In this document: one piece after another, positions 41,855-62,655 of the stretch
Position numbering within the stretch: position 1 is the first letter of the stretch
How the letters are laid out: each line of letters opens with the position of its first letter
From: Verrucomicrobiales bacterium
GTDB lineage: Bacteria > Verrucomicrobiota > Verrucomicrobiia > Limisphaerales > UBA11320
Length of the DNA: 64,000 nucleotides
Assembly: GCA_016793885.1 (NCBI GenBank)
Contig: JAEUHE010000055.1
Coordinates: 1-64,000, forward strand
Direction: 5' to 3'
Notes under the pieces: model-generated
Seen by the model: only the letters and a program-made list of their open reading frames with translations
The model's database searches: none
What the model was told of the DNA's origin: nothing
Translations under genes and position numbers: made by a program

Positions 41855-44800
41855 CTAGTTACCTTGCACATCAGCAATCTGCCGCTTGGCCTCCGCCGCA
41901 TAGGGATCCTTCAAACCCAAGGCCAACGCCCGCTGAAAGGAGTCCTTCGCTCGAGCGGGTTGCCTCAGTTTCGCGTAGCTGAGCCCCATAAAGTAATGGG
42001 GCTCGTAGTCCTGCTGCCGTGACGCCAAGACCTCTTGGAAGTAGAGCAGCGCGCTGGCGTAGTCCTGCCTGCGGAAACTGAGCCGGCCCATCAACGAGGC
42101 GATTTCCAAATCTTTTGGCATGAGTTCGCGAAGCTTTCGGGCCATCTCAAACGCAGTCTGCTCCAAGGCCGGATCATCGGCATACAACAAGGCCAGAGGC
42201 TTGCGAACCGGAAAGAACTCCGGATAGATGGTCTGAACCCGCTCGAAGGTTTGCCGTGCCAGTCCGCGGTCACCCTTCGCCATTTGGGCTGCCCCTTGCA
42301 CCATAAGTCCGGGCACATGGTTGGGAGCTGCTTTCAGGAGTTCGTTTGCTTTCACCGCCGCTTCGGCGACACCGGCGGGAGTGCCAGCGCGGTAGCCGGA
42401 AGTCATGGACACAAACCAGGTGGCGGAGTCGGACGTCGCGCGATCCGGATTCAACCGCAAGACTCGATCCATGGCGGAGGACGCCTCCGCCTCCCGACCC
42501 ACGCTGTAGGCGGCCCACGCAAATTGATGGATGACATCGGCGCGGTTGGTCAGGGCCGCAGCAGCCTCCCGCAGCAGGTTGTAGGCAAGCACATGCTCGT
42601 TGTTTTGAAAGGCGATCTGCCCATAGATCGCGGCCAGACTGGGATCATCGGGGTTCTGCGCCTGGGCACGCTTGGCCAAGTCGAGAGCCTTCGCTTGGTC
42701 CTTGAGGGGACCAGCATACAACACCGCCAGGCGGCTCAAGGCCTGGATCGCCTTGGGGTTCGAATCAAGGACGGCCTGATAGGCTCGAGCGGCCTTCTCC
42801 GGATCTTTTTGAGCCTCGTAAAGCTCGGCCAAACCCATTCTGCAGAACGGGTCGTCCGGATGCTGCCGGGCAAGCTCCAACAGACCTTCCTCGGTCAGTC
42901 GGCTGCCCGCTCGGTTCAGCAGGTCCAGCCGCTGCCGGATCTCGTCCCGCCCTTTGAAGGGGGTTGGAGACTTGAGAGCGGCCTCAAAAGCCGAGCGTGC
43001 CGGCCCTTCTTGGGTCAGCATGTAGTAGGTCATTCCGAGGTGAAATAGGATTTCGCCGTTCTGACGGAACCGCGCAGCGCTTTCCCGAAGCAACGGCAAG
43101 GCCTCGGAGTACTTCCTCTGCTGAAACAGAATCCAACCCAAGGTGTCCGCGATGCTGGGATCCTCCGGGACAAGCTGCCGAGCCTTCTGAGCCAGCTCGT
43201 AAGCCTTTTCCAGTTGGCCCGCTTCTTCGGAGTAGAGCACCGCCAGGTTATTCAGGGCGGGCACGAAGCCTGGATTGACCGCCAGCAGGCGCTCATAGGT
43301 AGCCTGGGCGCTCTTCCAGTCCTGCTTCTCCTGCTGCAGCATGCCCAGCAGCATCAATGCGCGGTCCTCCTTGGGGTTCTTGGCGATGAGCTGCTCCAGC
43401 TGAATGATGGCCTTGTCCTGCTGCTTGGATTGGGTGAACACGTTGGCCAGGAGGTAATAGGAGGCGGTCAAGTTCGCATCCGCAGCGATCGCAGCTCTCA
43501 GAGCCGTCTCCGCCTTGGCCCAGTCGCCCTGGGCGATGTGAATCCGTCCTTCCAACAATTGGCTGGGAGCGGATCTTCGGGCCTCCTCGCTCTGCTCGGC
43601 AACCCAGGCCGAGGCCTTGGCATATTGCTTCTCCGCCAGTTCGAGTTCAACCAACTGATAGAGCGATCCCAGGTGCTGCGGCGCGAGCTTGCGCACATGC
43701 TCAAACACTCCCCGGGCATCCGCGTTGCGATCCTGGACGCGAAGAGCTTGGCCGGCAGCCATCCATGCCTCCAGGCTGCCCGGATGGCGCTTGGTCACAG
43801 CGCCGTACACTTGCATGGCGTCGTCGTGACGTCCCATCACCATGTAGCACTCCGCCAGCAGGAGCTGCAAGGAGATGTCATCCGGACGCTTCTTGGCCAG
43901 AGGGAGGATGCCACTGGCTGCCTTGGTAACATCACCCATGCGCAGCTCCAGCTGCCCCCGCAAACGCACGGCCTCGACCGAATCAGGATTCAGCTTCACC
44001 GCCTGCTCGAGCAAGGGCACCACGAGGGGAATCTTCTTGTTGAGCAAGTGCGCCAACGCCAGCTGATACTTTACCTCGGCAGAGGGGACGAAGGTCCTAT
44101 CCACTTTCTCAAACACTTCCACCGCTTTGGACAGCTCACCGCTGGCCAGCAGGATGTTGCCGCGCAGCACCTGGCTGTCGAAGTGGATCGGATCCAACCG
44201 CAGCACTTCCTCCACCAACCTCAAAGCGTCCGCGTGACGTCCTTCGGACAGCGCCACCTGAGCCATGAGTCGCTTCGCTGCTAGGAAGTCGGGGGCAGCG
44301 GCCAAATACTCGCCCAAAACCTTCAACCCCGCCTCGGAGTTGGTATTGTTCTGCAGCAAGAACTCGGCGTAGCGGATGCGCGCGCCGTGCCGGAGGGGCG
44401 ACAGCTCGGCTGCTGAACGATACGCCGGCCCAGCCTGAGCCAGGTTCGTCTGGGAGAGAAGCAGGTTGGCCAGTGCTAAATGGGCAGCATACGATTTGGA
44501 ATCGAGCGCGAGCGCTTTTCGGATCTCCGTCTCGGCAGCCGGCACGTTACGGGTGCGAAAGAGAAAGTTGGCCAAGGCGAGATGGTGGCTGAAACGCCAG
44601 CCGCCCTGCTGCTGCAGTCCGGCCAGCACGCGACGAGTATCGTTGATCTCCGCCTCGGTCTTGGAGGCATAGGCCAGCAGAAGGATCGCCTCATCGTTCG
44701 CAGGCTGATGTCCCAACACAAAGAGTGCCTCCTCGCGCGCCGGGATGGTCTCGCCCCGGGAAAGCAGGATGTGCCCCAGACGAACCCGATTTTCAACTTC

Positions 44801-45085
44801 CAAAGGGGCCAGCTCCCGGCTTCGTTGCAAAAACGAAAACGCCTGCTGGATGGCTCCTTGGTCGAAGAAAATCGCTCCCAGGTGCACCACAGCCACGGCG
44901 TTGGTCCGGTTGAGGCGGAGCACGTTAAGATACTCAATCTTAGCCTTCTCGAGATCTCCCTCCTGGTGATAGGTCGCCGCGCGGGCCAGATGACCCGCTA
45001 CCTTGGATTGCTGGGAACAGCCAGCCCCGCCCAAAAGGGCCGCGACCAGCGCGAGACCAGTTCGCAAAATGGATAAGGTTCTCAT
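41855..45085 (-). CDS. prsT: PrsT-like TPR-repeat lipoprotein of exosortase loci
   Basis: 1076 residues. The first 23 form a signal ending GGAGC, a slightly unusual lipobox with Cys23 as the lipidation site. From about 30 to the end are some two dozen tetratricopeptide repeats with the W/LG/Y-A-A-P pattern (for example GRHDDAMQVYGAVTKRHPGS). Long TPR proteins of this kind (PrsT) accompany PrsK and PrsR in PEP-CTERM/exosortase exopolysaccharide loci, and probably scaffold assembly in the periplasm or at the outer membrane. It directly follows prsK-prsR here. Confidence 0.85.
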   Translation of the reverse strand: MRTLSILRTGLALVAALLGGAGCSQQSKVAGHLARAATYHQEGDLEKAKIEYLNVLRLNRTNAVAVVHLGAIFFDQGAIQQAFSFLQRSRELAPLEVENRVRLGHILLSRGETIPAREEALFVLGHQPANDEAILLLAYASKTEAEINDTRRVLAGLQQQGGWRFSHHLALANFLFRTRNVPAAETEIRKALALDSKSYAAHLALANLLLSQTNLAQAGPAYRSAAELSPLRHGARIRYAEFLLQNNTNSEAGLKVLGEYLAAAPDFLAAKRLMAQVALSEGRHADALRLVEEVLRLDPIHFDSQVLRGNILLASGELSKAVEVFEKVDRTFVPSAEVKYQLALAHLLNKKIPLVVPLLEQAVKLNPDSVEAVRLRGQLELRMGDVTKAASGILPLAKKRPDDISLQLLLAECYMVMGRHDDAMQVYGAVTKRHPGSLEAWMAAGQALRVQDRNADARGVFEHVRKLAPQHLGSLYQLVELELAEKQYAKASAWVAEQSEEARRSAPSQLLEGRIHIAQGDWAKAETALRAAIAADANLTASYYLLANVFTQSKQQDKAIIQLEQLIAKNPKEDRALMLLGMLQQEKQDWKSAQATYERLLAVNPGFVPALNNLAVLYSEEAGQLEKAYELAQKARQLVPEDPSIADTLGWILFQQRKYSEALPLLRESAARFRQNGEILFHLGMTYYMLTQEGPARSAFEAALKSPTPFKGRDEIRQRLDLLNRAGSRLTEEGLLELARQHPDDPFCRMGLAELYEAQKDPEKAARAYQAVLDSNPKAIQALSRLAVLYAGPLKDQAKALDLAKRAQAQNPDDPSLAAIYGQIAFQNNEHVLAYNLLREAAAALTNRADVIHQFAWAAYSVGREAEASSAMDRVLRLNPDRATSDSATWFVSMTSGYRAGTPAGVAEAAVKANELLKAAPNHVPGLMVQGAAQMAKGDRGLARQTFERVQTIYPEFFPVRKPLALLYADDPALEQTAFEMARKLRELMPKDLEIASLMGRLSFRRQDYASALLYFQEVLASRQQDYEPHYFMGLSYAKLRQPARAKDSFQRALALGLKDPYAAEAKRQIADVQGN

Positions 45086-45140
45086 GAATTGGAGTTACGG
45101 ATTCGGAGACAACGCAAAAAATGACAATGACACATACGGA

Positions 45141-46517
45141 TCAATTGGAAGGCCGCTTGATGCCCAGCTTTTCGATCAGCTCATAAAAGGTCGGGCGGCT
45201 GATTCCCAGATCCACCGCCGCCGGACTAATTTTCCCCTCGTGCCGGCGCAGGGCCTCCTCCACCATCTCACGCTCCAACTCTTCCCGCGCTTCCTTCAGT
45301 CCGCGTCTGCCGGAGGGAGCGCTTACCGGGCCACCATTGAGCTCGAGATCCGAAGGTTTCACCGTGGCTCCTTCCGCCATGATGACCGCGCGCTTGACGC
45401 GATTCTCCAACTCCCGAACGTTACCCGGCCAGGGATGCTGCTCCAGTGCGCGCAAGGCGGAGGGGCTGTACCTCAAATTCGGCCGATTACTCTCCCCGGC
45501 GAAGCGCCGCAGGAAACTTTGAGCCAGGACGAGCGTGTCCCCGCTCCGCTCCCGAAGTGGCGGGATACGAATCGACACCACCGCCACACGATAGTAAAGG
45601 TCCTCTCGGAACTTGCCTTCCTGCATCGCCTTTTTGAGATCCACGTTGGTGGCCGCCACGACGCGCGCATCCACCTCGATCTCACGTCGGCCCCCGACCC
45701 GCTCGATCCTCTGCTCCTGCAGGAACCGAAGCAGCTTGACTTGCAGGGCCAGCGGCAGCTCGCCAATTTCATCCAAAAACAAAGTCCCTCCCGATGCCAA
45801 TTCGATCTTGCCAGGCCGCTGCATATGCGCGCCGGTGAACGCGCCCTTCTCATGCCCGAACAGCTCGCTTTCCAACAAGTTGTCGGGAATCGCACCACAA
45901 TTAATGGCCACGAACGAACCTTCAAATCGCGTGCTCTTGCGATGAACGGCGCGGGCGGCGACCTCCTTTCCGGTCCCGCTCTCCCCCAGGAGCAACACCG
46001 GCACCTGGCTGCCAGCCACCTTCCGGATCGTCTCGAAAACGACCTGCATCTGGGGACTGCTGCCGATCATTCCTTCGAAGCCCTCCGTGTCCAGATGCTG
46101 TCGCATGCCCGTGATCTCTCGCTCCATGCGGGCCATCACTGACGCGCGCTTCAGCACCACCTTCAGCTCCTCAATCTCGGGCGGCTTCACCAGAAAATCA
46201 TACGCGCCCTCGTTGACGGCCCGCAGTGCGTTTCCTCGCTCCGATTGGCCTGATAGGATGATGACCTTGACCTGGGGATCGCACGCGACCATTTCGGTCA
46301 GCGTGGCCATCCCTTCCTCCGGGCCGGCGGGCATTGGAGGAAGGCCGAGGTCGAGTAGCACGAGACGCGGGTGATGGGCCCGAAACGCCTCCAAGGCAGA
46401 GACCCGGTCCTCCGCGAGCACGACTTCATACGATGCCGTCAGCGCCCACTTGAGCTGGGTTCTGATGTCCTCATCGTCGTCCACAATGAGCAATACTGGC
46501 TTTTCCTGGTCGTTCAT
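45141..46517 (-). CDS. prsR: PrsR-like sigma-54-dependent response regulator
   Basis: 458 residues from ATG at 46517, which overlaps the prsK stop by four bases; a longer in-frame stretch upstream is overlapped coding sequence. The receiver domain has the acidic pocket DDDED (13-17) and the phospho-acceptor Asp56 in LLDLGLP. The AAA+ domain has GESGTGKE (Walker A) and the GAFTGA loop that contacts sigma-54. A Fis-like helix-turn-helix ends the protein (AAVDLGISRPTFYELIEKLG). It should activate sigma-54 promoters of exosortase-related genes when phosphorylated by PrsK. Confidence 0.93.
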   Translation of the reverse strand: MNDQEKPVLLIVDDDEDIRTQLKWALTASYEVVLAEDRVSALEAFRAHHPRLVLLDLGLPPMPAGPEEGMATLTEMVACDPQVKVIILSGQSERGNALRAVNEGAYDFLVKPPEIEELKVVLKRASVMARMEREITGMRQHLDTEGFEGMIGSSPQMQVVFETIRKVAGSQVPVLLLGESGTGKEVAARAVHRKSTRFEGSFVAINCGAIPDNLLESELFGHEKGAFTGAHMQRPGKIELASGGTLFLDEIGELPLALQVKLLRFLQEQRIERVGGRREIEVDARVVAATNVDLKKAMQEGKFREDLYYRVAVVSIRIPPLRERSGDTLVLAQSFLRRFAGESNRPNLRYSPSALRALEQHPWPGNVRELENRVKRAVIMAEGATVKPSDLELNGGPVSAPSGRRGLKEAREELEREMVEEALRRHEGKISPAAVDLGISRPTFYELIEKLGIKRPSN

Positions 46518-48616
46518 TTGGCAGGTAACCAAACCTGAAACTGGGTTCCGTGGCCGAGCACGCTGGCCACTTCGATGCGCCCTCGATGAGCGTCCACGAT
46601 CGTCTTGCAATGAAACATCCCGATGCCCATTCCCTGTCGTTTGGTGGTTTGAAAGGGCCGGAAAAGGGAGTTCCGAATGAACTCCGGAGCCATGCCGCAG
46701 CCGGTATCCCTGACGGACAGCACCGACCATCCCTCCCGCAGCTCCGTCTCCACCCGCACCTCGCCCTTTTCTCCCAGAGCCTCCTTGGCATTCAAAACCA
46801 GGTTTACCACCACCTTCTGTATCTGGTCGGGATCCATCCAACACGTGAGCGCGCGCTGCAGCCGGCAGCGGAGCCACGGCTTTTCGATGGGCGCGATGCT
46901 TTGCAGGGCGGTCTCGACAGCTTCGTTGAGATCGGCATCCCGAAACTTCATGTCCATGTCCTGGCGAAGCGATGTCAAACGGTCGATGAGCTCCCTCACC
47001 CGCCCGACAGCCTTCGAGACAACGCGCAACGCATCGCTGCGAAACGCTGGATTGTCAAACTGGGTCGGAAGATTCTGCAGCATCAAGGAGAGCGAGGATG
47101 CGGTGTTTTTCAGGTCGTGAACGAAGAAGGCGGCCATCTGCTGGAAAGCGGCCAGTTCCTTGGCCCGGATGAGCTGGTCGCCGAGCCGGAGGTTCAATAG
47201 ATTTCCGGCAGCCTGATCGCTGATGCACTTGAGCAGATCGAGATCCTCCACCGAGAACCGAACTCCTCCCACGCGATCCCCGACCACCATGAAGCCGAGC
47301 ACGACATCATTGGCGATCAGCGGGACGCACAACTGGTCGCCGGCCACGTCAAACTGGCGGGGGTTCATGCGGCTCAGCGCGGTCGCCACATCGGCTGGCA
47401 GCTTGGCGAAATGCACAGGACCGTTGAACTCCCTCAACCGACGCGCCAGCGCTGAAACATCGGTTGAAGCCTGAACCAGGGCCCCGCCTTCCTCGTCACT
47501 CAAGGACGTGGAGGCTCCCAACCGAATGGATCCTTCCTGAACATCCAGGACCCAGAGATTCACGGACAGTGCTTCGACGGTAGAACAGATCAGACGGACC
47601 ATCTCCCGCGACAGCGTGGTTTGATCCCGGCAGGAGGAGGTTCGGTCGGTGAAGGCCTGCCAAACCTTGCGATAGTCGTAAAACGGACGCTGAAAATGGC
47701 GACTGACCAACTGCTTGGTCAACAGCCTCAAGCGGTCGGAAAGGATAAAGGCAGCACAGGCCGAAAGCGCTCCCAGCACCAGGAAGGATTTAAGCGGGAG
47801 AGAGCCGTCTCCACCGAAGGCGTTGGCGATCTTCCCCAGAACTCCAACCACGAACAGGTAGACGCCGGCCAGAACGACCGTGATAGAACTGTAGAGAGTC
47901 GATTTGGAGGGATAGATGTCCATCCCCAGTCCATCCGTCCGGTGCACGGCTACCGACAGAAAACTGCAGGCAACCAGCAGGGCGCCCGTGTTCAGTGAGT
48001 GCCAGAGCGGATGGAGGGCGGAATAGAGAATGGCCTGGCTGGAGGTAAACAGCCTGACGGCAAGCAGGCCTCCAAACCCCATGACGCCATACTTCAGCTT
48101 CCATCGCATCGTGCCTACCGCGGTCCGAAAGGTGCGCTCCAAATTCATCAAGGCCAGGACGGCGGCCACCATCAGAAGCAGGTGGACCAACTTCAGCGGC
48201 CAACCAATCATGACAAAAGGTGACCCCTGAGAATTGCCGTGTGCCGGCTCCATGATCACAACGTCACGGAACCCGGCGATGGCCAAGAGCGGGAGCGCTG
48301 CGGCCAGACCCAGAGCCAAACGCCATCGCAACAGCCCCTCGCGCACGTTGCCACGCGCATAGGTCAGCGAATACAGCAGCCATAGAACCGGGGCAAACGA
48401 CAGCAGCAGGCAGCGAATGCCCTGCAGTCGGAGCACATTGGACTGGTCGTGGCAAAGGAGCGCGGAATGGGCAATCAACCCCTCTGCGCCCAGCATCAAC
48501 AAAGTTCCCACGAACCCAACCTTGGTCAGCGGATGACTGCGCTGCCGGGAAACCACCCAGCACAAGCCGAGGATCCAGCAAACCGCAACAACCGACATGA
48601 CAAGCCCGGTGGTCAT
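46514..48616 (-). CDS. prsK: PrsK-like membrane sensor histidine kinase
   Basis: 700 residues. About ten hydrophobic helices fill the first 310 residues, followed by a GAF-like domain (about 330-480), the phospho-acceptor FVHDLKNTASSLSLML with His500, and a HATPase domain with NLVLNAKEAL, DTGCGM and GMGIGMFHCKTIV. This is the architecture of PrsK, the kinase paired with PrsR in PEP-CTERM/exosortase loci. Its stop overlaps the prsR start, so the pair is coupled. The signal it senses is unknown. Confidence 0.93.
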   Translation of the reverse strand: MTTGLVMSVVAVCWILGLCWVVSRQRSHPLTKVGFVGTLLMLGAEGLIAHSALLCHDQSNVLRLQGIRCLLLSFAPVLWLLYSLTYARGNVREGLLRWRLALGLAAALPLLAIAGFRDVVIMEPAHGNSQGSPFVMIGWPLKLVHLLLMVAAVLALMNLERTFRTAVGTMRWKLKYGVMGFGGLLAVRLFTSSQAILYSALHPLWHSLNTGALLVACSFLSVAVHRTDGLGMDIYPSKSTLYSSITVVLAGVYLFVVGVLGKIANAFGGDGSLPLKSFLVLGALSACAAFILSDRLRLLTKQLVSRHFQRPFYDYRKVWQAFTDRTSSCRDQTTLSREMVRLICSTVEALSVNLWVLDVQEGSIRLGASTSLSDEEGGALVQASTDVSALARRLREFNGPVHFAKLPADVATALSRMNPRQFDVAGDQLCVPLIANDVVLGFMVVGDRVGGVRFSVEDLDLLKCISDQAAGNLLNLRLGDQLIRAKELAAFQQMAAFFVHDLKNTASSLSLMLQNLPTQFDNPAFRSDALRVVSKAVGRVRELIDRLTSLRQDMDMKFRDADLNEAVETALQSIAPIEKPWLRCRLQRALTCWMDPDQIQKVVVNLVLNAKEALGEKGEVRVETELREGWSVLSVRDTGCGMAPEFIRNSLFRPFQTTKRQGMGIGMFHCKTIVDAHRGRIEVASVLGHGTQFQVWLPAK

Positions 48617-48635: not shown

Positions 48636-49610
48636 CTACGCACGCCGGGCCTTGGCTGGTCCGCCCCCGCCCACCAAAGAGGTGACCTCCGCAACGCCGG
48701 CGGGGGCTGAGACTGCCTGCCTCCGCTCGCGCCGAATCAGGGACCAAAGCACCAGGCCTAGGGGAACCAGGCTCAGGGCGAAAAACAAGGGACCGCCTCG
48801 CTTGTGGATCACCGAGTGGATCATCTCGGGGCCGATCTCCACGCACAGCCAGGCAATCACCAGAATGCGAAAGGCGTTGCGCAGGATTCCCAGGAAGACA
48901 GTGAAAACCGCCAGCGACCAACGGTGATTGGGATTGCGCAGAAACAGATACGCCGCGATCAAGCTCGTCATGAACAGGACGAGCGAGGACCTGACCCCGC
49001 TGCACTCCTGCGCCACCTTAAGGGTGATACCTGGCAGGGTGAACGTCAGCTGGTCGCGCAGAAACGGAAGCCCGCTCAGGCTAAAGAGCCAGGAAGCCAT
49101 CTCCGCGGACGCGTGCTGCAGGAAGATCTCGATCGCATCCATGGCAAAACTCGGGAGTGGAACCAGGAACAGGAGGAATCCCAGCGGGAACTGAATCTGG
49201 CGAATCGACTCAACGCTCAGATGCCAGCAGACCACGGCATAGAAGCCGCACAACAATGAGAGTGAACTCAACGAAAGCGCATCGCTTCCCGTCAGCGGAA
49301 AGCCTCTCAACCAGGAGGAAAGGTAGCCAAGCCCCCCCAGAACCGCCAAAGCAGACCAGCCCAACATCCAACCGGTCGCGCCTCGGTCATTGCGTGAGGG
49401 CTGCCATTGCCCATCCAAAGCACAGGTCCGAATGAGGTACCAGGACACAAACGGAACCAGCAGCACGTGGGAGTGAAATTCGCTGGTGAGAGCGAACTCG
49501 GCCCAGCGCACCAGCGGAATGCAGAACAGCAGGCCAAGCCCCAAGGTCCACTTGCCCACTCGCGCCAGCACCGCTGTCTGCTCCCCAGTTTGGGAAGGGA
49601 ATATCTTCAC
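48636..49610 (-). CDS. Exosortase (transmembrane cysteine transpeptidase-like)
   Basis: 324 residues from GTG at 49610, which overlaps the upstream stop as GTGA and has AAAGGT just before it. About eight membrane helices. The conserved catalytic residues are all present: Cys203 in QECSGVRSS, Arg244 in LRNAFR and His269 in HSVIHKRGG. Exosortases cleave C-terminal sorting tags (PEP-CTERM and related) on exported proteins. The EpsI-like extra domain found in some exosortases is absent, so the exact subtype is open. No protein in this window ends in a recognisable sorting tag; substrates must be elsewhere. Confidence 0.93.
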   Translation of the reverse strand: MKIFPSQTGEQTAVLARVGKWTLGLGLLFCIPLVRWAEFALTSEFHSHVLLVPFVSWYLIRTCALDGQWQPSRNDRGATGWMLGWSALAVLGGLGYLSSWLRGFPLTGSDALSLSSLSLLCGFYAVVCWHLSVESIRQIQFPLGFLLFLVPLPSFAMDAIEIFLQHASAEMASWLFSLSGLPFLRDQLTFTLPGITLKVAQECSGVRSSLVLFMTSLIAAYLFLRNPNHRWSLAVFTVFLGILRNAFRILVIAWLCVEIGPEMIHSVIHKRGGPLFFALSLVPLGLVLWSLIRRERRQAVSAPAGVAEVTSLVGGGGPAKARRA

Positions 49611-50482
49611 GACTCTACCTTTCTCAGATCCATCGCCGAAGCAGGCTGGGACGTCCCCTCCCCCCAAACCGCAACCGCCCGCTTGGGAAAGAACAGCTTA
49701 AGAGCCATGCTCGCCAAAGGGTTGATGGTAAGATAGGAAGGCTTAACCACAATCTCTGCACCGCGCATGAGGTAGAATCGGTCTAAACTCGATCCTCCTT
49801 TATACCGTGTGGCTATCAATGTCGTAACCTCCTGACGCTCAGCGGCAAACTCGCGGACCTGATGGAGCATAAAGTCCGAAATGAAGCTCTTCTGGGCATC
49901 GGTGGTGGAGAAGAAGGTCATGTAACAAAGGGTGGAGCCGAAAAGATAGCTAACGCTGATCGCTACCAGTTTGGCTCCATCAAATGCGCCGAGAATGAGA
50001 AGCTTCTGGCAATCAAACAGTCGATTGCTCCACGCCGCGTAAGTGGGTTCCTGGGTGCGGCTGGTGTAGTAGTCGTAATCCGTGCGGGCGTAAAAATCCA
50101 GGTAGACGGGATAGCCCAGACGCGACAATTCCTCGCGATCCACCATCTCGCGCACCGTGAACCGCCTCATGGCTATCTTGAGCTGCCGGCGACGATTGTA
50201 ATCCAGCGAATCCAAACCGTAGTCACGAAGCCCGGAGAAAGCTAAGAATCGAAGTGAGGAATTGGACGGCTCATGGGCCGGCACGACGTGCTGCCATCCG
50301 CCCAGCACGGCGGCTGCGGGCCCACGGAGCGAAGCATGCGGATACTCAGCCCATGGGATAAGCGGCTGGTAAAAGAAAGGTCGGACCACCTTCCAGTAGA
50401 TGCCACTGCGACGAATCATGCGTCCGCCGTTGGCTGCCTCCAACGCAGCGAACTCATCAAAGGTGATCGGCTGAAGAGCCAT
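49607..50482 (-). CDS. GNAT-like acyltransferase coupled to the exosortase
   Basis: 291 residues without a signal peptide. GNAT-type fold is suggested by KLVAISVSYLFGSTLCYMTF followed by an RDYG/DYYTSRTQEPTYAAW region; I do not recognise a precise family. The stop and the exosortase start share four bases (GTGA), so the two are made together. TIGRFAM-type descriptions exist of an exosortase-associated acyltransferase; whether this is one is not settled by eye. It may acylate a sorted protein or a polysaccharide component. Confidence 0.6.
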   Translation of the reverse strand: MALQPITFDEFAALEAANGGRMIRRSGIYWKVVRPFFYQPLIPWAEYPHASLRGPAAAVLGGWQHVVPAHEPSNSSLRFLAFSGLRDYGLDSLDYNRRRQLKIAMRRFTVREMVDREELSRLGYPVYLDFYARTDYDYYTSRTQEPTYAAWSNRLFDCQKLLILGAFDGAKLVAISVSYLFGSTLCYMTFFSTTDAQKSFISDFMLHQVREFAAERQEVTTLIATRYKGGSSLDRFYLMRGAEIVVKPSYLTINPLASMALKLFFPKRAVAVWGEGTSQPASAMDLRKVES

Positions 50483-50547: not shown

Positions 50548-51573
50548 CTATTTGCGATCCGCGGCCTTACGGGCAATGCTCGCCACCCATTCTTGGTTCT
50601 TGAGATACCAGGCGACCGTCTCCCGAATCCCGGTCTCAAAGGTGTACGATGGAGACCACCCAAGCTCCTTGGCCAGTTTCGAGGCATCTATGGCGTAGCG
50701 TCGATCGTGGCCGGGACGATCCTTGACGAAGGTCATGAGTTTCCTGGAATGGCCACCCAACTCGGGTTTAAGCTCGTCGACGAGGTCGCAGATCAGCTCA
50801 ACGATCCTGATGTTCGGCCACTCATTGTTCCCGCCAATGTTGTAGGTCTCGCCCAACCCGCCAGCCTGCAACACCCGCCACAAAGCCTCCGCGTGATCAC
50901 GCACATACAGCCAATCCCGAACATTCATGCCATCGCCATAGATGGGGATCGCCTTGCGCGCCAGAATGTTTTGGATCACCACCGGGATGAGCTTCTCGGG
51001 ATACTGGAACGGGCCGTAGTTGTTGGAACAATTCGTGATGACCGTAGGCATCCCGTAGGTGTGATGATAGGCCCGGACCAACATGTCGCTCGAAGCCTTG
51101 CTGGCCGAGTAAGGAGAATTGGGAGCGTAAGGCGTGGTCTCGGTAAACAACCCGGTGGCCCCCAGGCTGCCATACACCTCATCCGTGGAGACATGATGAA
51201 ACTTGAACGGCCCTGGCTTGCCAGCCCAGGACGCTCGACAAGCCTCAAGCAGATGAAATGTTCCCACAATGTTGGTGTGGATGAAATCCCCGGGCCCGGT
51301 GATGGATCGGTCGACGTGGGATTCTGCGGCCAAGTGCATGACGTGAGTGATCGCGTGACGATGAACCACCTGCATCACGGCATCCTTGTCCCGCAGATCC
51401 ACCTTCTCAAACGAATACCTCGGAGAGCCTTCCGCCCCCCTCAGATTATCAAGGTTGCCGGCATAAGTGAGGCAGTCCAAGTTCACGATTCGCTGGATCT
51501 CCGCTCGTCCGATCAAAAGATGAATCAAGTTCGATCCGATAAATCCCGCTCCGCCTGTGATCAGCAAATTCAT
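50548..51573 (-). CDS. rfbB: dTDP-glucose 4,6-dehydratase
   Basis: 341 residues. NAD-binding GGAGFIG at 7-13, the catalytic STDEVYG (Thr129-Asp-Glu) and YSASK (Tyr155, Lys159) are all in place. It converts dTDP-glucose to dTDP-4-keto-6-deoxyglucose, the branch point to rhamnose and other deoxysugars. It sits two genes after rfbA on the same strand. It is one of three sugar-nucleotide genes in a row, and no separate rmlC or rmlD was found. Confidence 0.96.
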
Positions 51574-51649: not shown

Positions 51650-52606
51650 TCACCCCAACTTCTCGGGTGTCCAGCGGGCGATAGAATCGTCCAGTGCCTC
51701 CAACACGGATCTTATCTTCACTCCGGCCGCCACGAGCTTGCTCGTGTCGAGAATGCAATTGGATCGGGGCGTCTTGGCGGCGGTCGCATAAAACTCTTCA
51801 TCGCTCGCCCAAAACGAGAACTCCCGCTTGAGCTTCAGCCCGGCCTTCAGCCGATCCAGCACTTGGGCGGTGGTGATGGCCCCTGGGTTGGTCACGTTGT
51901 AGGTTCCGAAGGGGGCCCGGAGAGCCCATAGGTCCAGGCAGGCCTTCACATAGTCCTCCCGATGCGAGATCGAGTTGATGTTGTCGTACACCTTGGAGTA
52001 CCTCTGGATCTTGGAGAGGTAGTTCCGCGGACTATCCCACTCATCGAAAGGAATTCTCAAACGCCAGATATAGCTGCTGCCCACGCCGGCTATCGCCTCC
52101 TCCCCCAGGGCTTTGGTCCCGCTGTAGAAACTGCAGGGGGGCTGACGGAAGGAAAAGTTGGGGGCATCGTCTTCTGCAAACCCGCTGAACGCGCCGGGGT
52201 TCTTTAGGAACAGCGCCCGCAGGGACGGCGCTGTCAGGTCCTTCTCGACGACCCAAGCGCCATCCAATTTCACTTTGGCTCCGGCGTAGATGCATCCCGA
52301 GGAGACGTGACCCCATGGCACCCCCGCGGCGCAGCAAGCATGGGCAATGGTGGCCGGCAGGAGGGTGTTTCCCTGGAGGGTGTCGGCTCTGGCCGTCTCA
52401 CAGGCATCCACGTTGGGCTTGCCCGTATAGCCGGCCGCGTTGATGACAAATTCCGGCTTTTCCGCTCGGAGCAACTCGAGCAGCTTCGAGAAGTCAGAAT
52501 AGTCCTTTTGCGACCGGGCGAGGTTCAAAAAGTCCCAGCGACGCCTCTCCAACTCCTTGGCGAAGGCCTGTCCGATGTAACCGCTGCCACCTAACAGAAT
52601 GATCAT
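51650..52606 (-). CDS. NRS/ER-like bifunctional sugar-nucleotide epimerase/reductase
   Basis: 318 residues from ATG at 52606. An extended short-chain dehydrogenase fold: GGSGYIG at 6-12, [12 protein letters not shown] at 56-67, SSGCIYAG near 102 and Tyr161-x3-Lys165. The phrases [35 protein letters not shown] and [19 protein letters not shown] resemble the plant and fungal NRS/ER protein, which both epimerises and reduces dTDP-4-keto-6-deoxyglucose to dTDP-L-rhamnose. That similarity is from memory. It lies between rfbA and rfbB, where RmlC or RmlD would be expected. A different 6-deoxysugar product cannot be excluded. Confidence 0.75.
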
Positions 52607-52664: not shown

Positions 52665-53540
52665 TCAACCTTTCCTTCTCCGCTCCGCGAGGAGATTCAC
52701 CAAATACTCCCGATACTCGCACTTGGGCACCTTGGCCGTCCAAGCCTCCAACTGATCGACACTTAGGAAACCCTGCTGGAGCGCCGCTTCCTCCGGGCAT
52801 CCGATCTTTACTCCAGTCCGCTTCTCGATCGTTTGCACATAGGCGGAGGCCTCGTGCAAGCTACTGCTGGTCCCGGCATCCAGCCAGGCGAAGCCCCGGT
52901 TCAACCGGGCGACTCGGAGCGTGCCCCGCCGCAGATACTCCATGTTGACATCCGTAATCTCCAACTCTCCCCGCGGGGAGGGCTTCAAAGCCTTCGTGAT
53001 GGCAACCACGTCGTTGTCGAACAGGTAAAGACCAGGCACCGCATAATGACTCTTCGGCTTTTGGGGCTTTTCCTCAATCGACAAAGCTTTGCCGTGCGCA
53101 TCGAATTCCACGACGCCATATCGTTCCGGGTCCAACACCTGATATCCGAAAATCTGCGCGCCGCTCCGAAATTCAGAGAACGCCTTGTGAAAAACGTCGC
53201 CCCCATAGAAGATATTGTCGCCCAAGATCAGCGACACGGGGTCTCGGCCGATAAAACTCTCAGCGATCAAGAACGCCTGGGCGATGCCAGCCGGCTTGGC
53301 CTGCTCACGATAATCGATGGTCACGCCCCACTGGCTGCCATCTCCGCACAGCTGGCGAAAGCGAGGAAGATCATGCGGGGTGGAGATCAGGCAGAACTCC
53401 CGCACACCGCACTCGATGAGGGTCGTCAGCGGGTAGAACACCATTGGTTTGTCATAGACAGGCTGAAGCTGCTTGCTGGCCACCAACGTCAGCGGATACA
53501 GCCGTGAGCCCGCACCCCCTGCAAGAATGATTCCCTTCAT
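52665..53540 (-). CDS. rfbA: Glucose-1-phosphate thymidylyltransferase
   Basis: 291 residues from ATG at 53540, the usual length; the longer upstream reading is not needed. MKGIILAGGAGSRLYPLT is the RmlA start, followed by KPMVFYPLTTLIECGVREF, LGDNIFYG and the EEKPQKPKS-YAVPGLYLFDN pattern with the Mg-binding DAGT(S)SSL. It makes dTDP-glucose from dTTP and glucose-1-phosphate. It supplies rfbB and the NRS/ER-like enzyme and is subject, in known cases, to feedback by dTDP-L-rhamnose. Confidence 0.96.
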   Translation of the reverse strand: MKGIILAGGAGSRLYPLTLVASKQLQPVYDKPMVFYPLTTLIECGVREFCLISTPHDLPRFRQLCGDGSQWGVTIDYREQAKPAGIAQAFLIAESFIGRDPVSLILGDNIFYGGDVFHKAFSEFRSGAQIFGYQVLDPERYGVVEFDAHGKALSIEEKPQKPKSHYAVPGLYLFDNDVVAITKALKPSPRGELEITDVNMEYLRRGTLRVARLNRGFAWLDAGTSSSLHEASAYVQTIEKRTGVKIGCPEEAALQQGFLSVDQLEAWTAKVPKCEYREYLVNLLAERRRKG

Positions 53541-53596: not shown

Positions 53597-54784
53597 TCAA
53601 GGCCGCACTACCGCCGCTGGCTGCCTCAGCCCGCCCTTGAGCAGTTCCCGGATTCTGAGGAAGGACTGACGAACCCGCTGCTTCTGGTTTTCCAGACTTC
53701 GCGCCAAACTCTCCCGCTCCACCCGCAGGGCCGCCTCCCCGGCGTCGCAGATGCCGCTGAAAGCGGTGGCCTGCTGAAGCGCGGGCGGAGCCCAGGTCCG
53801 TAGATAGCTGGGGATCTTGAGAATGCTAGGATCCAGGCCAAGATAGGGCACTTTAAAACTCATGGCCGTGATCACCCCATGCAGACTTGTGCCCAAGTAC
53901 AAATCCGAATTGGCGATGGTCATCATGACCGCTTCAATGCTCTGCGGCTTCACAAAAGTGCTCCTGGCCTTTAGCTCCTTGTTCAGCACCTGCAAGGGTA
54001 CCTGGTCATCGTGTCCAGGGCAGTTCCCGATGGAAAGCAGCACAATGTGACGCCCGGTCCGTTCCGCCAGGCGGTCGAGCTGGTCGCGGACCACCGGCAG
54101 ATGCTCCTCCCAGTGGTGACCGCGCATTTGGTAGCAGATGTATCCGGTTCCCGAGGGCGATGGGCGCTTCGGATAATAATCCGACATCAGGATCGCGCTG
54201 TCCGGAGTCAACACCACTTTCTCACAGCCCAGCCCTTCCTTGATGCTCCGGGTTGTGTCCTCCTCGCGCGCACTGATGTAGCAAGCCCGATCAAACACCT
54301 TTTTGACATTGTCCCGATGCTCGCTCTCGTGAGTGTCACACCCTCCGACGGCATGAAAAAAGAAATCCACTTCCTCCAACAGCGAGTCCCTCGATGGAAC
54401 AAAGGGCACTGGCTCCGAATGCCCCAAGACGCTTCTCACCACTCGCTCAAACCCGCGTCGAGTGGTTCGCCGAACGGCAAACAGATCGTAGATCCTCCGA
54501 AATGCCGGACTCACATAGCTGTACAAGGTGGCCCAATCGCTGCCGAGAACCTCGCCTCCCGCCACCAGGATGGCATCGCGTGGCTCGAGGTTGCCTCGAC
54601 GCTGATAAAGAGAGCCATAGGGCACGGTGGGAAGCGCGCCCAACTCGACCAGATTGGTGCGAACGATGGCGGTGTTCACCACTTCAAACTCCTGCTCGAG
54701 CTGCTTGTGGGCGATGATGGGGAACAGGAGGTCGCCGTAATTGAAGCGATCAGACGCCGACAGGACAAAAACTCTTCGTGTCAT
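53597..54784 (-). CDS. Polysaccharide pyruvyl transferase family protein
   Basis: 395 residues. MTRRVFVLSASDRFNYGDLL is followed by the family's GSLYQRR...AILVAGGEVLGSDW region, then HAVGGCDTHES and a C-terminal half with MTIANSDLYLGTSLHGVITA, in which the SLHG pattern is typical. Members add a pyruvyl ketal from phosphoenolpyruvate to a sugar, giving acidic polymers. It is placed between the flippase and the dTDP-sugar genes. Substrate sugar unknown. Confidence 0.85.
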   Translation of the reverse strand: MTRRVFVLSASDRFNYGDLLFPIIAHKQLEQEFEVVNTAIVRTNLVELGALPTVPYGSLYQRRGNLEPRDAILVAGGEVLGSDWATLYSYVSPAFRRIYDLFAVRRTTRRGFERVVRSVLGHSEPVPFVPSRDSLLEEVDFFFHAVGGCDTHESEHRDNVKKVFDRACYISAREEDTTRSIKEGLGCEKVVLTPDSAILMSDYYPKRPSPSGTGYICYQMRGHHWEEHLPVVRDQLDRLAERTGRHIVLLSIGNCPGHDDQVPLQVLNKELKARSTFVKPQSIEAVMMTIANSDLYLGTSLHGVITAMSFKVPYLGLDPSILKIPSYLRTWAPPALQQATAFSGICDAGEAALRVERESLARSLENQKQRVRQSFLRIRELLKGGLRQPAAVVRP

Positions 54785-54850: not shown

Positions 54851-56380
54851 TCAGGAAAATCGACAAGCCAGCTGATGATATAACTTCAAAAATGCGCCCT
54901 TGCCCTCACGAAAACCTTCCAGCCGAAAGGCCGCGGTCAGGGCCGCATACAGCAGGAGGGCGGCCCCCGACTCCAGAATCAGCCGGGCCCAGGTGTTGGG
55001 CCAGGTGATCAGGGTCATCCCATAGTAGACCAAAGCCGTGCTGACCACCGCAACCAGGAGCAACGGAACCACCGAACGAAGGATCTCAGACATACGGATA
55101 CCCATGGCCTTGGAGGCGAACAGGAGGTTGATCAGATAGGCGATCACGCCCGCGACCGCCAAACCGATGAGATAGCTGCGAATATCCATGACGAACAGCA
55201 TGGCCAGGTTCACCGTAAACACCGCCTTCTTCACCACCTCCGCCTTAAGGAACCCGGTCGAGTTCCCCGTCGCTTGAATCACCGCCCCGAGGGGGGCGCT
55301 CAACGGATAGACAAATGTTCCCATGAGCAGCAGCCGCAGATAGTCCACACACGGCAGCCACTTGGCCGAGAACAGGACCTTGACCACTTCCTCCGCGCTG
55401 ACAAACGCGACTCCAGACACGGCAAAGATCAACCAGGCCAGGGGCAAATAGACTTTCCGGAACGAGTGCGCCAAGAGCGCCTGATTGCTCTGAATGGTGC
55501 TGAAGGCCGGGAATAGCACCCGGGCCAAACTCCCCGCTCCGTACTCCGAGATCAAATTCTCGAGCAGTTTGGCGCGCTGGAAGAAACCCAACTCGCCGGT
55601 CGAGAACGCTTTCCCGATGATGAATACATCCAGACGGCGATAGAGGGTGTCAATCACACCCGAAGCAAACATCTTGGAGCCGAAATCCCACAGCTCGTGA
55701 AGGGCCTGAAACGAAAAATCTCGGGAAACTTTCCACTGGCACGCCGGAAGGATCGCGAGGGTAAACACCAGTGTCTGCAAAATCATCTGCCACACCAAGG
55801 CCCACACCCCATACCCGTGATTAGCCATCAGGACGGCGACGGTTCCGGAAACGATGGCTGAAAGAATCCTCGCCTTGCTGATGGGCTCAAACTGGAGATG
55901 CTTCGTGAGGTAGGCCGTCTGAATGGATGAGAGAGCATTCAGAATAAACAGGAGGCCGGTGGCCACGATCACACCCTGAAGCTCCGGCGCGGCATAGAGC
56001 CGGGCGAGCCACCCTGAGCAGGCGCACACGATGAGACACAGGCCGAAGGAAAGAACTAGGGAGCAATAAAAGGCAGAGTTGTAATGCAGTGGGGTCACCT
56101 TCTCGCTTTGGATCAGGGCGCTATACATGCCCGCCTCCGAGACCACGCCCGCGATCACCCCGATGGCACCCGCAATGGCCAGCAATCCAAAATGCTCCGG
56201 TGAGAGCAGCCTGGCCAAAATCGTGGTCACCAGCAGGTTTACCAACTGACACCCAAACTTACCTATAAAATCCCACTTGAGCGCGCGGAAGCTGCTGCGC
56301 TTCAGATCCGCCAACTTCTCCCGATCGGCCGCCAACGGGTCGGCAGCCGGATCTACGTCCGCGTGGTTCAGATTGGCCAT
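54851..56380 (-). CDS. Wzx-type polysaccharide flippase (MOP superfamily)
   Basis: 509 residues from ATG at 56380; the upstream in-frame extension overlaps the glycosyltransferase and is not supported. Twelve to fourteen hydrophobic helices start with ALKWDFIGKFGCQLVNLLVT and the family phrase RLLSPEHFGLLAIAGAIG. It would move lipid-linked sugar units across the inner membrane. A matching Wzy polymerase was not identified in this window. Confidence 0.9.
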   Translation of the reverse strand: MANLNHADVDPAADPLAADREKLADLKRSSFRALKWDFIGKFGCQLVNLLVTTILARLLSPEHFGLLAIAGAIGVIAGVVSEAGMYSALIQSEKVTPLHYNSAFYCSLVLSFGLCLIVCACSGWLARLYAAPELQGVIVATGLLFILNALSSIQTAYLTKHLQFEPISKARILSAIVSGTVAVLMANHGYGVWALVWQMILQTLVFTLAILPACQWKVSRDFSFQALHELWDFGSKMFASGVIDTLYRRLDVFIIGKAFSTGELGFFQRAKLLENLISEYGAGSLARVLFPAFSTIQSNQALLAHSFRKVYLPLAWLIFAVSGVAFVSAEEVVKVLFSAKWLPCVDYLRLLLMGTFVYPLSAPLGAVIQATGNSTGFLKAEVVKKAVFTVNLAMLFVMDIRSYLIGLAVAGVIAYLINLLFASKAMGIRMSEILRSVVPLLLVAVVSTALVYYGMTLITWPNTWARLILESGAALLLYAALTAAFRLEGFREGKGAFLKLYHQLACRFS

Positions 56381-56459
56381 GAAAGGGTGGGCAGATAGAA
56401 CAGATACTGATCCTTCGCACCGAACGGAGACAGATCCATGGGACACCTTTGATGCTGTC

Positions 56460-57470
56460 TCACGCGACCTTCTCAATGCCGCGCGGACGCTGGACGCTGG
56501 CTTCCTGCCGATAAGCGGCAGTGAGTTCCATCTCCCGGCGACGGAGCGTTCGTATTCGCGAGGTCTTGGCCAGCACTCGAAGGTCGCTGCCCAGGGCGGA
56601 GAACAGCAAGCCGACCCGCAGGCTGGAGACCAGCTTGAAGTAATCCAAAAAGTTGAAACGCTGGACGCGGATCCAGTTCTGGAGGAAGGAACGCTCGGAA
56701 CTCTTCAACAGGAAGACCTGACGCGACTCCCGCTCCTGCACATCGATACTCTCGTCGCGATCCTGGTTGGTATGGGAATGGGCATGCCCAACCGCCGCAT
56801 CGCTGACCAAAGCCAACCCGAGCCCGGCGGCGATGTAGCGACGGCAGAGATCATCATCCTCGCAATACATGAAGTAGATTTCATCGAACAAGCCCAACCG
56901 CTCCACCACATCGGCTCTGACCACAAAGCTGGAGCCCATGACTTTCGGAACCGCATAGGTTGTCCTTAAATTGCCCTCGATGGCATCCTTCACCAAGGAG
57001 GGACACTCCGACAGGTAGTGTTTGACATAAAAGCCCTCCATTTCGCGGAAGTCGTGCGAGAAGTTCAGCGGGGCGGTGATGGCGAGGCGGGGATCGGCGT
57101 AAAGGCTTCGCACCAGGCGCGTCAGGCATTGATCTCCCACCACCAGATCCTGATTCAAAATGGCCACCATGACCGCTCCGTCGCTGATGGCGGTGCGGGC
57201 TCCCAAATTGCACGCTTTTCCAAAGCCCAGCCGGGGCGGAGCCTCCAGAACATGAACCTCAGGAAACTCAACCGCCAGAGAAGCCAACTCCCCTCGGCGA
57301 ACGCTGTTTTCCACGATATAGATCCGACTGGCCCGGATGCCGTTGGCCAGGATGGACCTCAGGCAGGACTGAATGAAATCCTTACCATGGTAGTAGGGGA
57401 TCACAACCGCCACGCGGCTGAGATCAACCGGCCCTGTCGGCAAGCAGGAAGTATGGAACTGACCGGACAT
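56460..57470 (-). CDS. Family 2 glycosyltransferase
   Basis: 336 residues from ATG at 57470. The GT-A start is VAVVIPYYHGKDFIQSCLRS; ILNQDLVVG stands in the place of the DxD motif, and MYCEDDDLCRRYIAAGLGLA carries the catalytic Asp region. The family includes rhamnosyltransferases (RfbF/WbbL-like), which would suit the dTDP-sugar genes nearby. It is followed by the flippase and preceded by a methyltransferase. Confidence 0.9.
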   Translation of the reverse strand: MSGQFHTSCLPTGPVDLSRVAVVIPYYHGKDFIQSCLRSILANGIRASRIYIVENSVRRGELASLAVEFPEVHVLEAPPRLGFGKACNLGARTAISDGAVMVAILNQDLVVGDQCLTRLVRSLYADPRLAITAPLNFSHDFREMEGFYVKHYLSECPSLVKDAIEGNLRTTYAVPKVMGSSFVVRADVVERLGLFDEIYFMYCEDDDLCRRYIAAGLGLALVSDAAVGHAHSHTNQDRDESIDVQERESRQVFLLKSSERSFLQNWIRVQRFNFLDYFKLVSSLRVGLLFSALGSDLRVLAKTSRIRTLRRREMELTAAYRQEASVQRPRGIEKVA

Positions 57471-57523
57471 AATCAAACGATCAAACGAGACGATTAGGCT
57501 CCCTCGGTGGTGGCTAACAGTGG

Positions 57524-60233: not shown

Positions 60234-61205
60234 TCAGGGAACCGAACTAACGGGCTTATTTAGTGAAATAGTATTGTTGAGGCGTTTTGCCAGTTCAAGG
60301 GAAAACAGCCTCGAGCCTTGACGGTTAAGATGCTGGGAGTTGTAAAAGTGTTCCCGCTTCGCACAAACCTCCGATTCGCTGAAATCCATGAATGTGGCGT
60401 GCCCTTTCTCTGCCACCTGCCTGAACATGCCCATGAGTTCCTGCCGGTTGCTGGTGAGCCGCTGCATCTCGAGATACTCCGGAGAGTAGCACAACACCAA
60501 AGGTATTCCTCGGCTATGACAAAGCCGGATCAGGGACTCCACCTGCTCCACCCCCTTGGGGTCAATTTGGATTTTGAAGCCGTCACGATGCTGCTCCTTG
60601 AATCGCTCAAAATCACCAGTCCACTGAGTATCCCTCGGGTTGTAGCCTCGGAAATGATCCTCTCTCGGATGAATGCCAAACCAGGCGGCAAAACCCCTGA
60701 GCCAGGTAAACCGCATGTCCTCGACGACATACCCGTAGATCGGCAGATACTTCCACCTCCAAGCCTGCGGATGAATTTTCAGCAGAGCCCCATAGAGGGA
60801 CTCGTCGTGCAAATAGGGCATGTACTGAGCCGGATCATACACCTCGTCGGTCGGAATAAAGGTGTGCGGATCCAGGTTCTGGATAACCAGCTCCGGCTTG
60901 TCGTTCTGGCGCAGATACGCCTCTAGAACCGCAACTTGCATATCGATGTGCGATCCATTGCGTCCCAGGTTATAAGCCGTGCGCCCGGTCTGCTGCTGGA
61001 TCAAGACCGGATCGTAGTGAACCAAGGCCCGCGAGGATCCATTGATGACAATCTGCGCATTCACCTTTCCAGACATGGCGGCGTTGAAGGCGCCCTTGTC
61101 CGAGGTTTTGATCCGACGCAATCCCGAGTCGATGGCAGCATCCAAACCAAAGGCCACGACCGCACACAACAGGAAAAACGCGGCTATTCTTGAAAATCCG
61201 TGCAT
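60234..61205 (-). CDS. SGNH-like membrane-anchored partner of the MBOAT protein (DltD/AlgJ-like)
   Basis: 323 residues from ATG at 61205. One N-terminal membrane helix (about 7-24), then a periplasmic SGNH-like domain with NGSSRA at 55-60 (candidate nucleophile Ser57) and a C-terminal NSQHLNRQG in which His292 fits the catalytic His, but Asn replaces the usual Asp of the DxxH pair. The gene starts 10 nt after the MBOAT stop. In DltB/DltD and AlgI/AlgJ pairs such proteins hand the acyl group to the polymer. Confidence 0.7.
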   Translation of the reverse strand: MHGFSRIAAFFLLCAVVAFGLDAAIDSGLRRIKTSDKGAFNAAMSGKVNAQIVINGSSRALVHYDPVLIQQQTGRTAYNLGRNGSHIDMQVAVLEAYLRQNDKPELVIQNLDPHTFIPTDEVYDPAQYMPYLHDESLYGALLKIHPQAWRWKYLPIYGYVVEDMRFTWLRGFAAWFGIHPREDHFRGYNPRDTQWTGDFERFKEQHRDGFKIQIDPKGVEQVESLIRLCHSRGIPLVLCYSPEYLEMQRLTSNRQELMGMFRQVAEKGHATFMDFSESEVCAKREHFYNSQHLNRQGSRLFSLELAKRLNNTISLNKPVSSVP

Positions 61206-61215
61206 GAGTTCAGAG

Positions 61216-62655
61216 TTAGAACTGGAAATAGATAAACTCAGCCTTCCGATAGACCCCAAAGAAAACCACCGAATAAAAGAAAGTCAAATAGCACGCCCAC
61301 CGGGGAACCAATGGCAGCCGGACCCAAAGACGATCAAACCAAACCGCCCCACGCAGCAACTGGCCGATCTCCAGAAGCAGAATGCTCAGGATGGCCACCG
61401 GCAACTGTCGCAGCAGAAAGTGCTCGGTAGCCACTGCACCCAAATCCCAATTCACGGCCAAATGAGTCAGAATGTAGTGAGCGTCAGACATCGACTTCGC
61501 CCTGAAGAGCACCCAAGCAATACAAGTCAGGAAGAACGTGGTCAGCAACATGATTACCTTTCGAGCGAGCGTATCCCGGCCCAATCCAACTCCACCGAAC
61601 AAACGGTCCCTGAGCGGTAGAGTCAGCGCGCCGCAGACTAGGTAAAGCCCGTTTAAGAAACCCCAAAACACATAGGTCCAGTTGGCTCCATGCCACAAGC
61701 CGCTTATCCCAAACGTGATCAAAACATTCCTCGCCCAGCGAACCCGATCCACCCGACTCCCCCCCAAGGGCACATAGACGTAGTCCTTAAACCAAGTCGA
61801 AAGGGATATGTGCCAACGTTTCCAGAACTCGCCCACCGACAGCGACCAATACGGTGTGTTAAAGTTTTCCATCAGGTTAAAGCCCAGCACCCGGGCAGTG
61901 CCCAAGGCGATGTCGGAGTAACCGGAGAAGTCACAGTAGATCTGATAGGCGAAGAAGACGGTCGCCAGGGTCAGTTGCAAGCCGGTGCACTGTTGGGGCG
62001 CCCCATAGACATCGTTGACGTAAATCGCCAACCGGTCAGCAACCACCAGTTTCTTAAAGAAGCCCCACGCCATCCTCCTCAGCCCGATGCATGCATCCGT
62101 CGCGTTGAAATCCTTCAGCTCGCTAAACTGATGCAACAGATTCTGCGGCCGCTCAATGGGACCCGCTACGAGCTGAGGAAAAAACATCACGAACGTCGAA
62201 TACTTGATGAAGTCCGGTTCGGCCTTCTGACGCCCGTAGTAAACCTCCACCACATAGCTCAAACTCTGGAACGTGTGGAATGAGAGGCCGATGGGCAGGA
62301 GAATGTTCGAAGCGCCAAGGGAGACTTTCCAGCCAAACAGGCCGGCCAGGCCAACGAAATTTCCCATGAAGAAATCAAAATACTTGAAGACGAACAGCAC
62401 GGCGCAAGTCGCCACGAGGCTGAATACCAAGAGCGAGCGCCGCCTTGGCCCCTGGCTGGCCTCGATCTTCAGGCCGCAGACATAATCGATCAGGATCGTG
62501 ACAAACAGGATCAGGATATACTGCGGAACAAAGAACATGTAGAAGACGCAGCTCGCCACCAGAAGCATGGGAAGCCGCATCGACTTGGGCCCCATAAAGA
62601 ACAGGGCGCAGACGATCGGAAAAAACAGCGCAAACTCAAGTGAATTGAACAGCAT
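61216..62655 (-). CDS. MBOAT O-acyltransferase (AlgI/DltB-like)
   Basis: 479 residues with about 11 membrane helices. The family signatures are PQLVAGPIERP, EFWKRWHISLSTWFKDYVYV (His282) and the catalytic GLWHGANWTYVFWG (His322). Members move acyl groups from a cytoplasmic donor to extracellular polysaccharide: AlgI in alginate acetylation and DltB with the carrier protein DltC. An SGNH-like partner follows after 10 nt. Donor is unknown; both acetyl and a carrier-bound acyl are possible. Confidence 0.95.
   Translation of the reverse strand: MLFNSLEFALFFPIVCALFFMGPKSMRLPMLLVASCVFYMFFVPQYILILFVTILIDYVCGLKIEASQGPRRRSLLVFSLVATCAVLFVFKYFDFFMGNFVGLAGLFGWKVSLGASNILLPIGLSFHTFQSLSYVVEVYYGRQKAEPDFIKYSTFVMFFPQLVAGPIERPQNLLHQFSELKDFNATDACIGLRRMAWGFFKKLVVADRLAIYVNDVYGAPQQCTGLQLTLATVFFAYQIYCDFSGYSDIALGTARVLGFNLMENFNTPYWSLSVGEFWKRWHISLSTWFKDYVYVPLGGSRVDRVRWARNVLITFGISGLWHGANWTYVFWGFLNGLYLVCGALTLPLRDRLFGGVGLGRDTLARKVIMLLTTFFLTCIAWVLFRAKSMSDAHYILTHLAVNWDLGAVATEHFLLRQLPVAILSILLLEIGQLLRGAVWFDRLWVRLPLVPRWACYLTFFYSVVFFGVYRKAEFIYFQF

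Follow-up and report, generated by a model that had tools for sequence, protein, structure and literature searches.

In figure legends, two papers (PMC6556577, PMC9741107) assign bacterial dTDP-L-rhamnose synthesis to RmlB, RmlC and RmlD; the parts available also cover plant, algal, fungal and viral enzymes of the NRS/ER type. One viral enzyme, the UDP-L-rhamnose synthase L780 of mimivirus, acts together with the UDP-sugar dehydratase R141, according to the accessible part of PMC10117803. As far as the accessible text of Yin et al. 2011 (PMC3220709) goes, bacterial homologues of the NRS/ER domain were reported from Verrucomicrobia only, four in number; eukaryotes were proposed to have acquired a bacterial operon in which the rmlC and rmlD functions had possibly merged already, and the origin of the merged gene was called unknown. 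The gene considered here belongs to the same family and phylum as those homologues. Its gene neighbourhood, the RmlC/RmlD comparison and the phage copies go beyond what that text gives for the four, and the additions to it are the cassette, a pattern of RmlC/RmlD displacement and phage-borne copies. An rmlA-NRS/ER-rmlB cassette of bacteria or phages did not turn up in the open-access literature that we searched. On the grounds of homology, the residues of the active site, the fold of the model, a conserved neighbourhood and the absence of the RmlC-plus-RmlD pair from the sampled carriers, the gene most probably encodes a bacterial NRS/ER, predicted to stand in for RmlC and RmlD in a three-gene dTDP-L-rhamnose pathway (RmlA, RmlB, NRS/ER).

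The stretch of DNA analysed, hereafter the window, comprises the initial 64 kb of contig C55 in a genome of 8.7 Mb that is 95.7% complete and that, judging from its nearest named relatives, belongs to Verrucomicrobiota. The NRS/ER-type 3,5-epimerase/4-reductase gene, assigned by homology, tree, residues and fold, is a frame of 318 aa on the reverse strand (51650..52606, ATG at 52606, stop at 51650). On the same strand, rmlA (glucose-1-phosphate thymidylyltransferase, 52665..53540; TIGR01207, 413.6 bits against a cut-off of 360.65) ends 58 bp before it, and rmlB (dTDP-glucose 4,6-dehydratase, 50548..51573; TIGR01181, 479.3 bits, cut-off 365.1) follows after 76 bp. The sequence-only reading had placed an NRS/ER-type gene between rfbA and rfbB, and with neighbours on either side above their NCBIfam cut-offs this placement stands.

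The surroundings are those of an exosortase-linked exopolysaccharide locus, in which a rhamnose donor fits. Upstream of rmlA, likewise on the reverse strand, are genes for a polysaccharide pyruvyl transferase family protein (53597..54784; PF04230, 81.9 bits), a Wzx-type flippase (54851..56476; PF13440, 262.2 bits) and a family 2 glycosyltransferase (56460..57476; PF00535) that is weakly rhamnosyltransferase-like (TIGR01556, 44.4 bits, cut-off 200.55); a methyltransferase gene also lies upstream. Downstream of rmlB, again on the reverse strand, are an exosortase gene (48636..49667; PF09721, 148.1 bits; TIGR04151 for XrtC, 244.9 bits, below the cut-off of 300) and the PrsT, PrsR and PrsK genes of the exosortase/exopolysaccharide system (41855..48616; TIGR02917, TIGR02915 and TIGR02916, all above cut-off). 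Flanking the locus (39781-41445 and 60234-62655) are genes for an FkbH-domain protein and for an MBOAT acyltransferase, the latter with a partner that weakly resembles DUF1574; they are a hint that the polymer may be acylated. An Rfam search over 44-60 kb of the window gave no match.

By sequence, the closest solved chains are 4qqr, the NRS/ER (UER1) of Arabidopsis thaliana (E=1.8e-29), and 7jid, mimivirus L780 (3.9e-14), with the best RmlD at 5.5e-6; a profile of 14 relatives (A1) gave the same order (6e-56, 1.7e-35 and 1.2e-19). The likeness to the bifunctional enzyme of plants and fungi that had been noted earlier is thus real at the level of sequence. The AlphaFold model of the 318-aa protein (pLDDT 94.7) matched 7jid best (Z 34.0), followed by 4qqr (Z 30.4) and RmlD (at most 29.5). 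By the fold of the predicted model, therefore, only 7jid is clear of RmlD and 4qqr ties with it, so that fold alone is insufficient for the assignment to NRS/ER, which is settled by sequence and residues. A tree separates 12 RmlD rows from the group that unites the protein with 4qqr and 7jid (100/100). Identity as RmlD was rejected, as the protein scores 72.4 bits on TIGR01214 (cut-off 224.05) and its active-site residues differ; a GDP-L-fucose synthase was likewise rejected (NF047922, 25.4 bits, cut-off 500).

With the Arabidopsis enzyme the window protein shares the fold, the Cys/Lys/Tyr/Lys active-site set and the single-domain architecture at about 28% identity, but the plant enzyme, in the accessible descriptions, works in a UDP-sugar pathway, whereas the window gene adjoins genes for RmlA and RmlB. 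L780 shares the active-site residues at 22-25% identity, but is viral. RmlD has the short-chain dehydrogenase fold, the Y-x3-K motif and a pathway step in common with the window enzyme, but acts after RmlC and mostly carries TDYV where the window protein has SGCI.

In the alignment, C105 (codon at 52292..52294) is equivalent to Arabidopsis C115, K199 (52010..52012) to K183, and Y161-x3-K165 (52112..52126) forms the reductase motif of short-chain dehydrogenases, all on the reverse strand. C115 and K183 are proposed as base and acid, respectively, and we take them to be the epimerase residues of plant NRS/ER; Qian et al. 2015 is reportedly the source for both. In the 102-row alignment, C105 occurs throughout the virus-collection (36 of 36), long-contig (6 of 6) and plant/mimivirus-type (4 of 4) rows and in all but one of the Verrucomicrobia (42 of 43), a total of 88/89 NRS/ER-type rows, and in 0 of 13 RmlD rows. 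For K199, the corresponding counts are 36/36, 6/6, 4/4 and 41/43 (87/89), and 2/13 for RmlD. At positions 104 and 105, all 13 RmlD rows have D followed by Y or F, where the window protein has G and C. A 105-row residue count was also made, which leaves out L020 and L120. GDP-L-fucose synthase works alike: a Cys serves as base and another residue as acid in a double epimerisation, and a Tyr then assists the reduction, though its substrate is a GDP-sugar and a His takes the place of the Lys. For the human enzyme, the accessible part of PMC12362431 describes a similar pairing of a cysteine base with a further acid. An insert of about 25 extra residues, seen from alignments and lengths, distinguishes the window protein from 4qqr near residues 110-142 (52181..52279, reverse strand). 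Lying between the cysteine motif and a GF-E-D-PNF motif, it occurs in most copies of the window's order, and most of the remaining aligned copies, be they bacterial, phage, plant or mimivirus-type, lack it.

In the proposed pathway, RmlA would supply dTDP-glucose and RmlB would convert it to dTDP-4-keto-6-deoxyglucose. The NRS/ER would then epimerise C3 and C5 of this product, with C105 as base and K199 as acid, and reduce C4 with NADPH through Y161/K165, and the resulting dTDP-L-rhamnose would pass to the exopolysaccharide locus. Both activities, the product with its stereochemistry and its dTDP form are thus predictions. The earlier suggestion that the enzyme makes dTDP-L-rhamnose in one step fares well in part: the enzyme is likely able to do so without RmlC and RmlD, but "one step" is loose, as the chemistry would comprise two epimerisations and a reduction within one active site. 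A dTDP rather than a UDP substrate is expected because the genes for RmlA and RmlB adjoin the gene; the preference of plant NRS/ERs for UDP-sugars, reported in the available part of PMC6556577, counts against it.

The product of RmlB is the precursor of many sugars, and the stereochemistry of what is made from it cannot be read from a sequence. The window enzyme could in principle yield dTDP-6-deoxy-L-talose, by the same epimerisation and reduction from the other face, or dTDP-D-fucose, without epimerisation. We consider such a product quite improbable, since the retained Cys/Lys pair argues against a plain reductase and the nearest characterised relatives make L-rhamnose, their activities being those given in the accessible part of PMC9741107.

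Neither an RmlC nor an RmlD gene was found in the window, where the RmlD model matched only the NRS/ER-type gene and rmlB, both far below cut-off. Genome-wide, the sole RmlC-family (PF00908) match is on contig C233, a gene that scores 164.4 bits against a cut-off of 155.75, and no RmlD reached its cut-off; the best RmlD-like protein scores 142.8 bits, and no rml gene was found in the surrounding 18 kb. The sequence-only reading, which had stated that no rmlC or rmlD is present, therefore holds for the window and, as to RmlD above cut-off, for the whole genome, but not for RmlC. Of the RmlC and RmlD genes elsewhere that it had named as evidence against itself, an RmlC-family gene was found and an RmlD above cut-off was not, and this genome has no evident complete route through RmlC and RmlD. 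The RmlC-family gene is grouped with aminotransferase and formyltransferase genes (L013 5028-8260), suggesting a cluster for an N-formylated amino sugar; the surrounding 18 kb revealed no further rml gene.

Among 144 genomes of the phylum, each at least 90% complete, 19 carry an NRS/ER-type gene (at least 352 bits, the next match being at 91.5), 99 have RmlC and 96 RmlD above cut-off. RmlC is present in 4 of the 19 carriers, the window genome included, against 95 of 125 non-carriers, and RmlD in 1/19 against 95/125. Both occur together in none of the carriers and in 93 of the 125 non-carriers (p 2e-10, a statistic that ignores kinship), a contrast that is largely one of class against class. 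Among the 49 genomes listed under the window's class, the figures, again ignoring kinship, are 4/17 carriers against 8/32 non-carriers for RmlC (p 0.60), 1/17 against 10/32 for RmlD (p 0.042) and 0/17 against 8/32 for the pair (p 0.023), so that exclusion of RmlC/RmlD by NRS/ER is modest at this level. A swap of the RmlC/RmlD pair for NRS/ER is clear within one family: the pair is missing from all 11 carriers sampled, and the non-carrier G156 has the four genes consecutively, as rmlC-rmlD-rmlB-rmlA; two more non-carriers of this family have neither RmlC nor RmlD.

These counts allow a second reading, namely that the enzyme is a 4-reductase alone, a substitute for RmlD that receives its epimerised substrate from an RmlC-family protein encoded elsewhere in the genome. 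The gene on C233, the four carriers that keep an RmlC and the similar frequency of RmlC in carriers and non-carriers inside the class fit this reading. We nevertheless regard it as unlikely, given that 15 of the 19 carriers have no RmlC above cut-off, that the epimerase pair C105/K199 is retained, and that the gene on C233 adjoins aminotransferase and formyltransferase genes, with no further rml gene found in the 18 kb around it. The bifunctional NRS/ER remains our preferred assignment.

The neighbourhood seen in the window recurs in its relatives. Both rmlA and rmlB are at most 2 kb away and in the same orientation in 19 of 26 loci of order relatives, in 67 of 80 loci of the genome collection (the best 80 of 481 relatives, with titles naming Verrucomicrobia except for six titled just "bacterium"), in 8 of 18 wider-phylum loci, whose flanks are just about 1.5 kb, and in 28 of 80 IMG/VR loci (the best 80, which were examined, of 180 relatives found by the scan). 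Neither RmlC nor RmlD was found beside the gene on either strand in any of 211 loci (E 1e-5; four RmlC and five RmlD queries; flanks of about 0 to 4 kb). The order is rmlA-NRS/ER-rmlB in the window's order and often NRS/ER-rmlB-rmlA elsewhere. Counting against a cassette are the 52 of these best 80 IMG/VR loci without the full pair within 2 kb, and four wider-phylum loci (L217-L220) in which neither RmlA nor RmlB adjoins the gene, two of them with no RmlA or RmlB found in the 19 kb and 18.5 kb around it. The NRS/ER-type enzyme is common within the window's order, and represents a variant of a known enzyme rather than a new type. If a bacterial lineage and phages do use NRS/ER, pathway calls that read "rmlC and rmlD missing" as "no rhamnose" would change.

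Our phylogenetic analyses comprised a quick tree of 102 rows, for which 97 of 224 loci were kept after removal of X-rich, short or near-identical proteins, and a careful tree of 76 rows, without L037, L038, L222 and the listed near-duplicates. With RmlD as the root, the careful tree unites all NRS/ER rows (100/100) and puts the window gene in a group of 12 Verrucomicrobia and three virus-collection rows (100/99). Its nearest rows are of the same genus and order, the closest being 74% identical and of the same genus. Five rows from the long contigs L235-L241 cluster with the plant and mimivirus-type rows (99/92), and the remaining split is weak (82/67); the deepest NRS/ER branch order differs between the two trees. 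The sampling of eukaryotes and giant viruses amounts to a single plant row, the chain from mimivirus and a pair of short contigs, all on long branches; the two contigs, which we label giant-virus-like, are 52-54% identical to the mimivirus protein, and no terminase was found on them.

The word "eukaryote-like" in the sequence-only reading can be taken as a hint of transfer, and the best solved relatives are indeed eukaryotic and viral. The position of the window gene inside the Verrucomicrobia clade, with its own genus nearest, speaks against transfer from eukaryotes, and the plant and mimivirus-type rows sit in a separate clade. Holding Verrucomicrobia and these rows together is disfavoured, though the p-AU of 0.064 is borderline and above 0.05; a single clade of Verrucomicrobia was neither demonstrated nor rejected (p 0.298). 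A plant, fungal or giant-virus gene moved into the bacterium is, in our judgement, very improbable, and the hint of transfer is not supported. The copies nearest to the eukaryotic type here are those on long contigs, probably of jumbo phages, with the gene beside an RmlA-like gene. NRS/ER may be an ancient enzyme of prokaryotes and phages, part of a three-gene cassette for dTDP-L-rhamnose, from whose pool the plant, fungal and giant-virus enzyme would descend with a later shift to UDP-sugars, the bacterial operon being the "integrated" donor postulated by Yin et al. 2011; we offer this tentatively, as possible rather than probable. For the origin of eukaryotic NRS/ER, the present data provide concrete candidate donors and a testable enzyme.

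Copies of the gene also appear to be borne by phages. A large-terminase match was obtained for 26 of 48 tested contigs (25 above cut-off) among the best 80 of the IMG/VR relatives, so that tailed phages appear to account for about half of the contigs tested. Three contigs (L043-L045) have no terminase match, fall among Verrucomicrobia in the tree and may be host DNA. The seven virus-collection contigs L235-L241 (64-481 kb) carry an NRS/ER copy nearer the plant type beside an RmlA-like gene, and no RmlB was found in their 4-kb flanks. Five of the seven show a weak terminase match, with two above cut-off; we label them jumbo phages, which they probably are. On L238, an ORF resembles translation initiation factor IF-3 by eye. 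Among 50,697 INPHARED records there was no close copy: the window protein matched one record and two virus-collection copies matched 117 and 5, all below 60% identity and the listed ones at 25-30%. Twenty plasmid records matched at 34% identity or less, mostly annotated rfbD. On one short contig (L233 2937-4635), an NRS/ER domain is followed in frame by a 4,6-dehydratase-like domain, giving 568 aa to the contig end; this protein is 52% identical to mimivirus L780, and its domain order is the reverse of that of plant RHM.
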